DNA of 7,780 nt, taken from positions 1-7,780 of the forward strand of contig JABGPV010000237.1 in NCBI GenBank assembly GCA_018644785.1, written 5' to 3'. The notes beneath the pieces are model-generated. The model made no database searches and was not told the DNA's origin. It saw only the letters and a list, made by a program, of their open reading frames with translations. A program made the translations under genes and the position numbers. Position 1 is the stretch's first letter; each line of letters opens with the position of its first letter. Origin of the DNA: Deltaproteobacteria bacterium (GTDB taxonomy: Bacteria; Desulfobacterota; DSM-4660; Desulfatiglandales; Desulfatiglandaceae). Of the stretch, positions 1-7,707 are shown in pieces.

Positions 1-108
1 TTGGACAAATTGATCAGCAATTATTTTACGTTGGATGAGATCAATGATGTGGCGGATAAGATGTTAAAAAGGGAGATTCATGGTCGCTGGGTATGCAAAT
101 GGGACTAG
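1..108 (+). CDS. Alcohol dehydrogenase, zinc-type MDR family, C-terminal end only (partial)
   Basis: An open frame enters from the left edge and gives 35 residues before a TAG stop at 106-108. The fragment starts LDKLISNYFTLDEINDV and ends GRWVCKWD. The pattern of an LI..-F-LDEIN stretch, a K-R-rich helix and a short basic-aromatic beta strand is typical of the extreme C-terminus of medium-chain zinc alcohol dehydrogenases. The catalytic and zinc-binding parts are outside the window, so substrate and cofactor cannot be read. It points the same way as the aldehyde oxidoreductase gene 184 bp downstream, so an alcohol-to-aldehyde step feeding that enzyme is a reasonable inference. It could instead be another MDR reductase. 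Confidence 0.6.
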   Translation: MDKLISNYFTLDEINDVADKMLKREIHGRWVCKWD

Positions 109-2078: not shown

Positions 2079-2318
2079 ATGAATGTCGCCGTCAAACTTT
2101 TTGGGACTTTGGGACGGTATATTCCCGGGTATGATCATGACCGTGGTGCAAATGTCCAAATCTCGGATGGCTCGAGGGTAAGGGACCTTCTTGTCCATCT
2201 CGAGATTCATGCGTGCAAAGGGCTTATTGTTGCGGCGAAGGGGAAACTCCTGAAACCGGAGGATAAACTGGGAAATGGTGATTCAGTTCAGATTTTCCAA
2301 TCGGTATTCGGGGGTTGA
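2079..2318 (+). CDS. MoaD/ThiS-family sulfur carrier protein
   Basis: This 79-residue beta-grasp protein ends in Phe-Gly-Gly. The C-terminal Gly78-Gly79 is the hallmark of MoaD/ThiS carriers, where the terminal glycine is adenylated by a MoeB-type enzyme and turned into a thiocarboxylate. The N-terminal VAVKLFGTLGRY strand and the late EDKLGNGDSVQIFQ segment (about 60-75), the usual 'L-x-D-G-D-x-V' region, agree with the family. In a gene pair with an AOR it most likely supplies dithiolene sulfur for the pterin of the tungsten cofactor. The Shine-Dalgarno site is weak (an AGCAGG stretch about 10 bp upstream). An ATG five bases earlier gives only a two-codon frame, so 2079 is the sensible start. 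Confidence 0.88.
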   Translation: MNVAVKLFGTLGRYIPGYDHDRGANVQISDGSRVRDLLVHLEIHACKGLIVAAKGKLLKPEDKLGNGDSVQIFQSVFGG

Positions 2319-2373: not shown

Positions 2374-2379
2374 GAGGAG
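2374..2379 (+). promoter_or_regulatory. Ribosome binding site deciding the mftA start
   Basis: GAGGAG lies 12 bp upstream of the ATG at 2392, somewhat far but the best site in the region. It supports a 40-residue peptide rather than the 79-residue frame from 2275, whose first 44 bases overlap the MoaD-like gene. Confidence 0.5.
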
Positions 2380-2391
2380 ATTCTCAAAAGG

Positions 2392-2514
2392 ATGGAAGAT
2401 AAGACTACTGAGATGGCAAAAGAAAATTTTGAAAATAAAAACGAGGACATTTTTTTAACGCAGGAAATCGAAATTGAAGAGATGGCCATAGATGGAATTT
2501 GCGGGGTATATTGA
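2392..2514 (+). CDS. mftA: Mycofactocin precursor peptide MftA-like
   Basis: The predicted peptide has 40 residues: a polar, glutamate-rich leader (FLTQEIEIEEMA, 21-32) and the C-terminal core IDGICGVY (33-40). MftA precursors are short acidic peptides ending in an IDG-x-CGVY motif. The radical SAM enzyme MftC, with the chaperone MftB, decarboxylates the last tyrosine and crosslinks the terminal Val-Tyr. The peptidase MftE, MftD and the glycosyltransferase MftF complete the redox cofactor. Here Val39-Tyr40 are intact and final. The open frame extends back to an ATG at 2275, but that would overlap the MoaD-like gene and is too long; an alternative internal ATG is at 2413. The gene lies 73 bp after the MoaD-like stop. 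No maturation gene is in the window, so they must lie elsewhere if the system works. The call rests on the C-terminal motif, peptide size and acidic leader. Confidence 0.85.
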   Translation: MEDKTTEMAKENFENKNEDIFLTQEIEIEEMAIDGICGVY

Positions 2515-2618: not shown

Positions 2619-2981
2619 CTAACGGCGGAACCCATATTCCAGTGTGAAAAATTGAGGATTCAAATCAGCCAGAGGTCCCCGGAGTTTTGTAAGTTCATCT
2701 TCGGGGCCGTGGACTTCCAAACGGGTGAGTTCAGCAATCTTCAGGGCTTCTTCCAACAGAGAGCCCACATTTCCGAGATGGGTTAACGCAGCATCGGCAT
2801 CTTCATAGCCCTCACGGCAATGGACCTGGGCCCCATCAAAGCTGAATCCATAATAGAGACATTTGGGCTCCCCATTGGTTTTCTCAACAAACTGCTCACA
2901 CAGTGCCTTAAAAGCCTCAAGTTTACCGTCCTGAACCTTAAAATAGGGTACGATGGTACAACATTTGTCCTGTGTTGCCAT
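2619..2981 (-). CDS. ABM-like (antibiotic biosynthesis monooxygenase/quinol monooxygenase fold) protein
   Basis: This 120-residue soluble protein resembles dimeric alpha-beta barrel proteins of the ABM superfamily. It has an N-terminal strand (CTIVPYFKV, 8-16), a helix with a GKLEAFKALCEQFV segment (19-32), a strand CLYYGFSF (41-48) and the characteristic HCREGYEDADAALTH region (54-68) before a second helix. The C-terminal half beyond about residue 85 extends past the usual minimal ABM domain. Members include quinol monooxygenases and many proteins of unknown role, so no substrate is assigned. The start is firm: AAAGGAGG (2996-2989) lies 7 bp before the ATG. It is divergent from the DUF4242 gene and convergent with mftA. 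A strong promoter with an internal palindrome lies upstream, so it is probably a separately regulated gene. Confidence 0.6.
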   Translation of the reverse strand: MATQDKCCTIVPYFKVQDGKLEAFKALCEQFVEKTNGEPKCLYYGFSFDGAQVHCREGYEDADAALTHLGNVGSLLEEALKIAELTRLEVHGPEDELTKLRGPLADLNPQFFTLEYGFRR

Positions 2982-3325: not shown

Positions 3326-3601
3326 ATGCCGAAATATGTCATCGAACGTGAACTGCCGGGCGCTGGAAAACTATCTCAACAAGAGATCCAGGGGATTTCC
3401 CAGAAATCCTGTGAGGTATTAACGAATCTCGGGCCGCAGATCCAGTGGGTTCAGAGCTACGTAACCGACGACAAGATCTACTGTATCTATGTTGCTCCCA
3501 ACAAAGAGTTGATTGAAAAACACGCGAAAGAGGGCGGCTTTCCGGCCAATACGATTTCAGAGGTCAAACGTATCATTGATCCGACAAGCGCCGAGGGATA
3601 A
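3326..3601 (+). CDS. DUF4242 (SCO4226-like, nickel-binding family) protein
   Basis: This 91-residue soluble protein starts MPKYVIERELPGAG and carries a helix ending at SCEVL (28-32). Then come the conserved QWVQSYVTDDKIYCIYVAP strand pair (40-58), an ELIEKHAKEGGFP helix (61-73) and a final strand VKRIIDP. This matches the DUF4242 family, small ferredoxin-fold proteins whose Streptomyces member SCO4226 binds nickel. The family's role is not settled. The start is supported by GAGGAGG (3312-3318), 7 bp from the ATG. It stands alone between a terminator-like hairpin and a convergent gene. It and the divergent ABM-like gene probably share a similar small alpha-beta fold, but no joint function is shown. 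Confidence 0.8.
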   Translation: MPKYVIERELPGAGKLSQQEIQGISQKSCEVLTNLGPQIQWVQSYVTDDKIYCIYVAPNKELIEKHAKEGGFPANTISEVKRIIDPTSAEG

Positions 3602-5882: not shown

Positions 5883-6821
5883 GTGGTGAAAGTATCCCGA
5901 GTATCCATTGATCTTGAAGAGTATCGATCAGAAATTCACCTCGATAAGCCTTTCAAAGCGTCGGAACCCGCGCCGGCCCTCGAGAAATTGCGATCGGATC
6001 TGGTTGACGAATTGCTGGCGAATCTGGAAACCGACGGCACCTTCCAACGGTGCGGAATTCGTCTTGAAGCATTTCCGTCATCCTATACCGAAAAACGACG
6101 TTTGTTAAAGGCCCTGCTGACCGGGCGCAGTCCGGACCCGCTGCCAAAGCGGTTTCACACACAGATGGATCACCTTCTGCAATACGAAAAAGGACAAATC
6201 ACCATCAACGAAGCTGCCGGCCTGCCTCAGATTTCGCAGATGTTTACAGGTTCAACTTATGGGAGCGCGGAGTTGTGCACTCTCTGGAAGGGCGATATCA
6301 CCACCTTGGGGGTGGACGTCATCGTCAACGCGGCCAATGCCCAAATGCTGGGCTGTTTTGAACCCTTCCACAACTGCATTGACAATATTATCCATTCGGC
6401 TGCCGGACCTCGCCTGAGGGAGGATTGTGATACGATCATGCACATTCAGGGAAATCTTGAAGGGACAGGATGGGCTAAAATCACGCGGGGCTACAATCTG
6501 CCGTCCAGATATGTCCTTCATACCGTTGGTCCCATTATCCCGGCCGGTCGGGCGCGGATTTCCAATGAACAGGAGGACTTGCTGTCAAACAGTTATCGTT
6601 CTTGTCTCGAACTTGCGGGACGTATCGCCCGTGTCCGATCGCTTGCGTTTTGCTGCATCTCAACCGGGGTGTTTGGCTTCCCCCATGAACCCGCCGCGAG
6701 CATTGCCCTGAAAACCGTTCACCGCTGGCTGCGGGAGAACCCCAGGGCGCTTGACCTGGTAGTATTCAATGCCTTTACACAAGTCGATTTTGAGATTTAC
6801 ACCCAACTCCTGAGCCGATAA
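5883..6821 (+). CDS. Zinc-type macrodomain protein, predicted ADP-ribosyl hydrolase
   Basis: The protein has 312 residues: an N-terminal helical region of about 125 residues, then a macrodomain. The macrodomain shows WKGDITTLGVDVIVNAANA (135-153), the usual ADP-ribose binding strand and asparagine loop, HTVGPI (213-218), and the phosphate loop STGVFGFP (260-267). The GCFEPFHNC insert (157-165), with Cys158, His163 and Cys165, is typical of the zinc-dependent macrodomains that partner class M sirtuins in bacteria and fungi. These remove ADP-ribose from proteins. The N-terminal part contains a RRLLKALLTGRSP-like motif (72-84) also seen in that subgroup. The start is GTG at 5883 (or GTG at 5886); the first in-frame ATG would remove 94 residues. 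The sirtuin gene follows after 13 bp, so the two are co-transcribed. Confidence 0.9.
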   Translation: MVKVSRVSIDLEEYRSEIHLDKPFKASEPAPALEKLRSDLVDELLANLETDGTFQRCGIRLEAFPSSYTEKRRLLKALLTGRSPDPLPKRFHTQMDHLLQYEKGQITINEAAGLPQISQMFTGSTYGSAELCTLWKGDITTLGVDVIVNAANAQMLGCFEPFHNCIDNIIHSAAGPRLREDCDTIMHIQGNLEGTGWAKITRGYNLPSRYVLHTVGPIIPAGRARISNEQEDLLSNSYRSCLELAGRIARVRSLAFCCISTGVFGFPHEPAASIALKTVHRWLRENPRALDLVVFNAFTQVDFEIYTQLLSR

Positions 6822-6834
6822 TGAGAAAAACGTT

Positions 6835-7707
6835 ATGATCCGAAACCAGGATATCGAGAAATGTGCCGAATTTATCCGGGAGGCCGACTGCGTGCTGATC
6901 GGCGCCGGTTCGGGCATTACCGCCGATGCCGGCTATGACTATGCCGACCAGGAAGCATTCGCTCGGGATTACCCCGGCATGGCTAAACGCGGCTTCCGTA
7001 TGAAGGCCGAGTTGATCGGCTACACCGGCTGGAGCCCGGCGCTCAAATGGGGGTATCTGGCCGCCCACGTGAACGAGGTGCGTTTCGATGCACCGCCTCA
7101 TCCGGTCTACGGGCGGCTCCTGGATTTGGTAAAAGATAAAGACTACTTCGTGATCACATCCAATGTCGATGGCATGTTTGTCAAGAACGGTTTTTCGGAG
7201 GATAAAATCTTCACGCCCCAGGGCGATTATGCTCTCATGCAGTGTGAAACACCCTGCTGTCGGGAAACCTGGGACATCAAACCGATCATTGACCGCATCT
7301 TACCAACCGTCGATCCTAAGACCCAGGAGATCACTGACCCCAGTGTAATCCCCACCTGCCCGAATTGCGGTGGGCCGGTGTTTATGAATGTTCGCGCCGC
7401 CCACTGGTTCCTCGATGACCCCTACAGACAACAAGCCGACCGTTTTGTTAAATGTGTTCAGGAAAAGAATAAATCTCGCTTATTGTTGATTGAAATCGGT
7501 GCCGGGTTCAACACCCCCAGTGTGATCCGCTGGCCCATGGAACGTATCGTCCTCTCGCATCCAAGTGCCAATTTTATCCGCGTCAACCCGCAATGGCCCC
7601 AGGTCCCCGATGAAATCGCTGAAAAATCAGTAACTTTCCAGAATGGCGCGATGGAGACGATTACCGCTATCTGGAAAACGATAGGCAAAGTGTCGGAAAC
7701 GGGATAG
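6835..7707 (+). CDS. Class M sirtuin (SirTM), predicted protein ADP-ribosyltransferase
   Basis: This 290-residue Sir2-fold protein has the NAD loop GAGSGIT (23-29), TSNVDGMF (108-115) and TPQGDYA (127-133), then GAGFNTPSVIR (222-232). Zinc ligands are Cys137 and Cys141 (CETPC) with Cys175 and Cys178 (CPNC). In deacetylase sirtuins a histidine occupies the site held here by Gln129, and an ISGIPDFR motif follows the first loop; here it reads GITADAGYDY. Replacement of the histidine by glutamine, with Asn110 kept, is the mark of SirTM enzymes, which ADP-ribosylate a lipoylated GcvH-like carrier instead of deacetylating. The macrodomain partner lies immediately upstream. No GcvH-L, lipoate ligase (LplA2) or oxidoreductase is in the window, so the target cannot be confirmed. 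ATG at 6835 is chosen for its fit to the family start; the ribosome site is weak. Confidence 0.88.
   Translation: MIRNQDIEKCAEFIREADCVLIGAGSGITADAGYDYADQEAFARDYPGMAKRGFRMKAELIGYTGWSPALKWGYLAAHVNEVRFDAPPHPVYGRLLDLVKDKDYFVITSNVDGMFVKNGFSEDKIFTPQGDYALMQCETPCCRETWDIKPIIDRILPTVDPKTQEITDPSVIPTCPNCGGPVFMNVRAAHWFLDDPYRQQADRFVKCVQEKNKSRLLLIEIGAGFNTPSVIRWPMERIVLSHPSANFIRVNPQWPQVPDEIAEKSVTFQNGAMETITAIWKTIGKVSETG

Follow-up and report, generated by a model that had tools for sequence, protein, structure and literature searches.

A variant-type mycofactocin precursor gene beside an aldehyde:ferredoxin oxidoreductase gene, with no adjoining mftB or mftC

Results

Gene content of the window

The window, by which we mean the whole stretch of 7,780 nucleotides analysed here, begins within a zinc-type alcohol dehydrogenase (ADH) gene, of which it contains just the last 35 residues, followed by genes for an aldehyde:ferredoxin oxidoreductase (AOR), a small MoaD/ThiS-like protein and a short peptide (Table 1). 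Domain matches to AFOR_N/AFOR_C and to ThiS confirm the AOR and the MoaD-like carrier that a sequence-only reading had placed upstream of the peptide gene. The AOR carries a CSQCIVHC (C-x2-C-x3-C) motif, read from the sequence, aligns with the solved AOR 1aor at 268.7 bits and, judging by its family, is probably a tungsten enzyme. Full-length ADHs from two related loci, L007 and L022, have TIGR03989 (NDMA-dependent ADH) as their best NCBIfam match, with 315.8 and 329 bits, respectively, against a cut-off of 440. Zn ADH, AOR, MoaD-like protein and peptide are encoded in what looks like one alcohol-oxidation operon, and the organism is probably a relative of sulfate reducers.

Table 1 Features of the window and the evidence for each
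Feature	Position	Strand	Evidence
Zinc-type ADH, C-terminal end, cut by window edge	1..108	+	63% identity over 35 aa to L007 ADH
AOR, 572 aa	293..2011	+	AFOR_N 211.5 bits, AFOR_C 248.2 bits, both above gathering
MoaD/ThiS-like small protein ending in GG	2079..2318	+	PF02597 ThiS 28.9 bits, cut-off 22.5
Possible ribosome-binding site GAGGAG, 12 nt 5' of ATG	2374..2379	+	Read from sequence; weak evidence
mftA, variant-type mycofactocin precursor, 40 aa	2392..2514	+	NF040489 and TIGR03969 matches; no adjoining mftB/mftC
Conserved C-terminus IDGICGVY	2488..2511	+	Read from sequence
Val-Tyr, last two codons, core processed in characterised systems	2506-2511	+	Core as given in the accessible part of PMC11778925
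ABM-like protein (antibiotic biosynthesis monooxygenase family), convergent with mftA	2619..2981	-	PF03992 19.8 bits, below gathering 23.1
SCO4226-like (nickel-responsive) small protein, between ABM gene and CCG-domain protein	3326-3601		94.5 bits
Macrodomain protein-ADP-ribose hydrolase	5883-6821		299.2 bits, cut-off 272
Divergent Sir2-like protein, directly after macrodomain gene	6835-7707		14.9 bits, below Pfam gathering

Neither mftB nor mftC was found within the window by tblastn, using as queries MftB and MftC of two relatives and then two MftB and one MftC. Further 3' of the SCO4226-like gene lie genes for a CCG-domain protein, a MarR regulator and the macrodomain and Sir2-like proteins. 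The latter two look like a macrodomain-SirTM pair, an arrangement known from other bacteria. A plasmid origin was considered and rejected, as no near match to the window occurs among 72,556 plasmid records.

The peptide belongs to the variant-type mycofactocin precursors

The peptide gene is an open reading frame with an ATG start, encoding MEDKTTEMAKENFENKNEDIFLTQEIEIEEMAIDGICGVY and ending in the conserved ...EIEIEEMAIDGICGVY, in agreement with the initial description of a 40-codon gene with the terminus IDGICGVY. Its proposed identity as an MftA-like precursor holds against the curated family models: NF040489 (NCBIfam, variant-type mycofactocin precursor) is matched at E 4.4e-8 with 33.3 bits against a cut-off of 30, and TIGR03969 (NCBIfam MftA) with 28.7 bits against one of 25. 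The gathering score of Pfam PF23709 is not reached (19.9 versus 27). Because the curated NCBIfam models are passed, the peptide is classed as a predicted variant MftA rather than as a member of the Pfam family. The curated peptide model yielded zero matches in 14 control genomes.

The longest frame begins within the previous gene, as had been pointed out: the preceding in-frame stop is at 2251, and additional start codons at 2275 and 2278 fall within the MoaD-like gene. Small genes of this kind had been described as easily missed for this reason, a remark to be qualified in that such peptides are by now annotated. A search of ~5.8 billion proteins gave 125 matches at E<=0.01, which is more than chance would yield; the nearest is 88% identical over the full length, and several JGI and NCBI records of these relatives already bear the names "mycofactocin precursor" or "variant-type mycofactocin precursor".

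Across the last 14 codons of 13 orthologous DNA sequences, the mean pairwise difference is 0.07, 0.00, and 0.48 at codon positions 1, 2, and 3, respectively. This third-position bias indicates a translated peptide whose C-terminus is under purifying selection. The putative ribosome-binding sequence GAGGAG also occurs at the matching place in the alignment with L001, a related locus described below. The mftA of the window is a real, intact-looking precursor gene. MftA itself is a known family; what is new is the arrangement, namely the linkage to AOR and the absence of adjoining mftB and mftC.

AOR genes recur beside variant precursors

A scan of genome contigs with the AOR as query yielded 23 loci, three of which contain the peptide motif (L001, L022, and L007). 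In addition, the curated peptide model was run on 395 genomes from the phylum of L022's genome (18 above cut-off), on 389 genomes from its class (30 above cut-off) and on 85 genomes from the order of L001's genome G001 (7 above cut-off); a class-level sample around G001 comprised the same 85 genomes and the same 7 matches, and the phylum, order and class samples overlap. Besides that of the window, neighbourhoods were compared at 58 sites from 51 genomes, mostly over 10 kb per side, with many regions shortened by contig ends. A weak match below cut-off in G242 was excluded from these sites, whereas G518, also below cut-off, was included with its adjoining MftB and MftC.

Gene orders vary around a common theme. 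L001 reads Fe-ADH, AOR, broken MoaD, MftA, ABM, and L022 reads ADH, AOR, MftA, MftB, MftC, two OYE, ETF-alpha, where MftB, MftC and one OYE exceed their NCBIfam cut-offs and the other OYE scores 729.1 versus 793.15. L007 has an AOR and, ~7 kb further, ADH, MftA, MftB, MftC, OYE. The order AOR-MoaD-MftA-MftB-MftC-OYE is found in G131 (L086), and ADH-AOR-MoaD-MftA-MftB-MftC-OYE in G828 (L158), so that the gene order of the window also exists with mftB, mftC and OYE attached.

The frequency of AOR genes in the vicinity of variant MftA far exceeds expectation. In a first set, 12 of 22 genomes with the variant peptide contain an AOR within the fetched flanks; after exclusion of G001, G006 and G018, which had been found via their AOR, 9 of 19 remain, compared with 1.1 expected from AOR density alone (236 AFOR_N matches in the 99.5 Mb of this set). 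A second set gave 13 of 29 genomes against 1.5 expected, a figure that uses the density of the first set; the genomes are related, and kinship is ignored in both comparisons, which makes the associated P values too small. Four linked AORs that we compared are 30-50% identical pairwise, apart from one pair at 69%, and this argues against a one-off accident that was then inherited. A literature search, with subscription journals mostly outside its reach, found no paper joining mycofactocin with aldehyde ferredoxin oxidoreductase, and to that extent the linkage was not found in print.

Two stricter forms of this association were considered and rejected. Dependence of this AOR clade on mycofactocin is contradicted by MftC above cut-off in just 2 of 18 genomes, representing 18 of the 23 AOR loci. 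MoaD is likewise no fixed part of a mycofactocin unit, as a homologue follows the AOR in 16 of 20 AOR loci devoid of MftA; in L022, tblastn did not find MoaD.

As a separate observation, LarB and LarC, of nickel-pincer cofactor synthesis, are encoded near variant mycofactocin genes in many compared loci (L069, L071, L079, L081, L130-L134, L137, L139-L141, L147, L152, L154, and others), their names resting on one protein each. No paper linking mycofactocin with lactate racemase was found in a search that left subscription journals mostly outside.

Precursor genes without adjoining mftB or mftC

At 51 of the 58 genome sites, mftB or mftC directly follows mftA in 3' direction; two sites could not be judged owing to contig ends, and five have neither gene (L001, G301:C56, G065:C142, G622:C158, and G797:C59), the window being the sixth such orphan. 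Four of the five genomes encode MftC above cut-off elsewhere. In G065, G301 and G622, the orphan shares a contig with an MftABC set, so that assembly contamination is unlikely there; in G797, the two are on different contigs. Precursors outnumber MftC in each of the four (3 versus 2 in G065 and G301, 2 versus 1 in G622 and G797). More broadly, 46 of the 51 other genomes with a variant peptide contain MftC above cut-off (21 of 22 in the first set and 25 of 29 in the second, where a 26th falls below cut-off).

In the fifth genome, G001, no MftC match was obtained at E<=1e-60, the best reaching 131.6 bits where 265 would be required, which may reflect an incomplete assembly or real absence; MftF is present above cut-off. 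Its L001 contig ends 819 bases 3' of MftA, with the ABM gene between. The Fe-ADH of L001 carries TSNPKDYECK, close to the TSNPKDYEVH on which, according to the accessible portion of Haft 2011 (PMC3023750), the signal of mycofactocin-linked Fe-ADHs centres.

In G065, the open frame of the orphan overlaps an ADH gene at its end, and a second MftA of that contig does so with an AOR gene. Such overlaps suggest translational coupling, although later start codons are available in both precursors. The recurrence in related genomes of precursor genes without adjoining maturation genes suggests that several precursor copies may share one maturation set. We consider it probable that the window peptide is a satellite MftA, which MftB and MftC from other sites in the genome modify in trans and which serves an alcohol-to-acid oxidation module. 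No paper on orphan, multiple or paralogous mftA, or on variant-type mycofactocin, was found in the literature searched, which mostly excluded subscription journals.

The main rival to a satellite precursor is a relic: the operon once continued into mftB, mftC and OYE, these genes were lost, and the leftover mftA is decaying. Two of the five other orphans indeed look damaged. The MftA of L001 has a frame change in its leader and GTG as its sole usable start, giving 33 aa, besides an ATG inside the core region, and the accompanying MoaD is broken; the G797 orphan (L157) retains the conserved end with no start 5' of it. A further AOR locus, L002, has an Fe-ADH end, an AOR and a MoaD but no MftA; in the AOR tree its AOR groups with those of L001 and the window in one sub-branch (93/90, support that is not strong), and neither peptide nor MftC exceeds the cut-off in its genome. 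The window copy, however, retains its full 40-aa frame with an intact leader and differs from L001 over the last 20 codons by 11 third-position against 4 other changes. Proteins P0001-P0003 are 83-88% identical to it over the full length, P0003 occurring on 32 contigs, and among the other orphans, those of G065 and G622 begin with ATG and retain the full frame, that of G301 being 37 aa long with a GTG start. Decay of a leftover gene is an unlikely account of the window.

It is highly improbable that mftB and mftC lie directly 3' in the true genome and that the downstream half of the window is misassembled. The prevalence of an adjoining mftB or mftC at the genome sites would favour such an error, yet in L001, a separate record, the same ABM gene (81% identical) likewise comes after mftA, albeit in the other orientation, and in a third genome, G301, an ABM homologue is located 248 bases behind the orphan mftA.

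The distribution of the ABM-like gene also stands as an observation in its own right. It occupies 2619-2981 in the window, 8495-8857 in L001 and 9389-9751 in L080, and homologues were seen at three of six orphan sites but at none of the 51 where mftB/C are present (Fisher p 0.0007, or 0.006 with the window and L001 counted once), an association noticed after the fact.

Maturation genes and a proposed route of electrons

Maturation genes beyond MftB and MftC were searched in the 22 relatives of the first set. MftF exceeds its cut-off in 20 of them, MftD in just one (G397) and MftE in none, with weaker creatininase-family matches in 15; the 14 control genomes contain weaker family matches in 5 (MftE), 6 (MftD) and 13 (MftF) cases, none above cut-off. 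Release and oxidation of the core in variant genomes must, to judge from these matches, proceed by another way or through diverged enzymes, and the final product may differ from known mycofactocin, given that MftE is absent and MftD nearly absent above cut-off. The families of MftD and MftE were described as not universal in the part of Haft 2011 available (PMC3023750). In G289:C95 (L088), two more radical-SAM-like proteins are encoded after MftF, and similar ones adjoin MftF in G001:C460 (L098).

The lack of MftE above cut-off also fits a peptide that remains unmodified or is differently modified and has a role of its own, for instance as a small partner or regulator of AOR or ADH that needs no MftC, as does its repeated placement directly behind AOR or ADH genes, with overlapping frames in G065. 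The leader end and core nevertheless resemble those of MftA encoded beside mftBC, including the Cys-Gly-Val-Tyr end, and we regard an independent role as very unlikely.

For a satellite precursor matured in trans, the following route can be proposed. The window peptide would be made together with ADH and AOR and modified by MftB and MftC from elsewhere in the same genome, where we infer their presence. A nicotinoprotein-type ADH would then oxidise an alcohol and hand the electrons to a mycofactocin-type carrier, while the AOR would oxidise the resulting aldehyde to the acid and reduce ferredoxin. The reduced carrier could be re-oxidised by FadH/OYE flavoenzymes, passing electrons to electron-transfer flavoprotein (ETF) and on to membrane or cytochrome partners. 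In many relatives, OYE and ETF genes adjoin mftC, and membrane or cytochrome partners are encoded beside mftBC as well.

More generally, and tentatively, anaerobes related to sulfate reducers may possess a variant mycofactocin wired to tungsten AORs, and some of their genomes may have several satellite MftAs, each made with one alcohol- or aldehyde-oxidising enzyme and sometimes in overlapping frames, that are matured by MftBC encoded elsewhere; we hold this broader picture to be possible, though somewhat less likely to be right than wrong. Should this picture be true, each substrate operon would set the supply of cofactor precursor. With MftE absent and MftD nearly absent above cut-off, the end product may be chemically distinct from the mycofactocin of mycobacteria. 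The finding connects AOR enzymes with a redox carrier made from a peptide in anaerobes and offers a concrete path by which relatives of sulfate reducers might oxidise alcohols to acids. Two questions become testable, namely whether a single MftBC can serve more than one precursor and which form the carrier takes without recognisable MftD and MftE.

Comparison with known systems

With the MftA families TIGR03969 and NF040489, the window peptide shares a short acidic leader, a C-terminal xDGICGVY and scores above both curated cut-offs; it differs in lying behind AOR and MoaD without adjoining mftB or mftC, and in scoring below PF23709 gathering. The AOR is typical of its family, possessing both AOR domains and having 1aor and 9mqx as best matches among solved structures, whereas its gene adjoins a mycofactocin precursor.

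The occurrence of mycofactocin in what looks like an anaerobe had been presented as unusual. The precursor is present here, but the anaerobic setting is no surprise, since the accessible text of a 2011 report (PMC3023750) already places mycofactocin in Deltaproteobacteria and Firmicutes, for example, Geobacter and Pelotomaculum; the surprise lies in the AOR linkage and the missing mftBC. The Geobacter, Pelotomaculum and Desulfotomaculum clusters of that report resemble the relatives studied here in MftB and MftC, linked alcohol dehydrogenases and MftF, and differ in that no AOR was seen in them within the text available. Haft 2011 (PMC3023750), in the same portion, describes rSAM protein, glycosyltransferase and peptide as always occurring together, whereas here the peptide gene is located apart from the rSAM gene.

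The mycobacterial system of MftA-F and MftG, as described in the accessible part of PMC11778925, has a Val-Tyr core modified by MftC with the chaperone MftB and a carrier that serves alcohol dehydrogenases, features to which the present peptide and its neighbours bear likeness. The relatives examined here differ from it in their MftD and MftE complement (1 and 0 of 22) and in OYE and ETF beside mftC in many loci. For Herbiconiux sp. L3-i23, the same part of PMC11778925 describes loss in one genome, whereas here six sites have an orphan MftA gene, and the genomes of four of these bear MftC.
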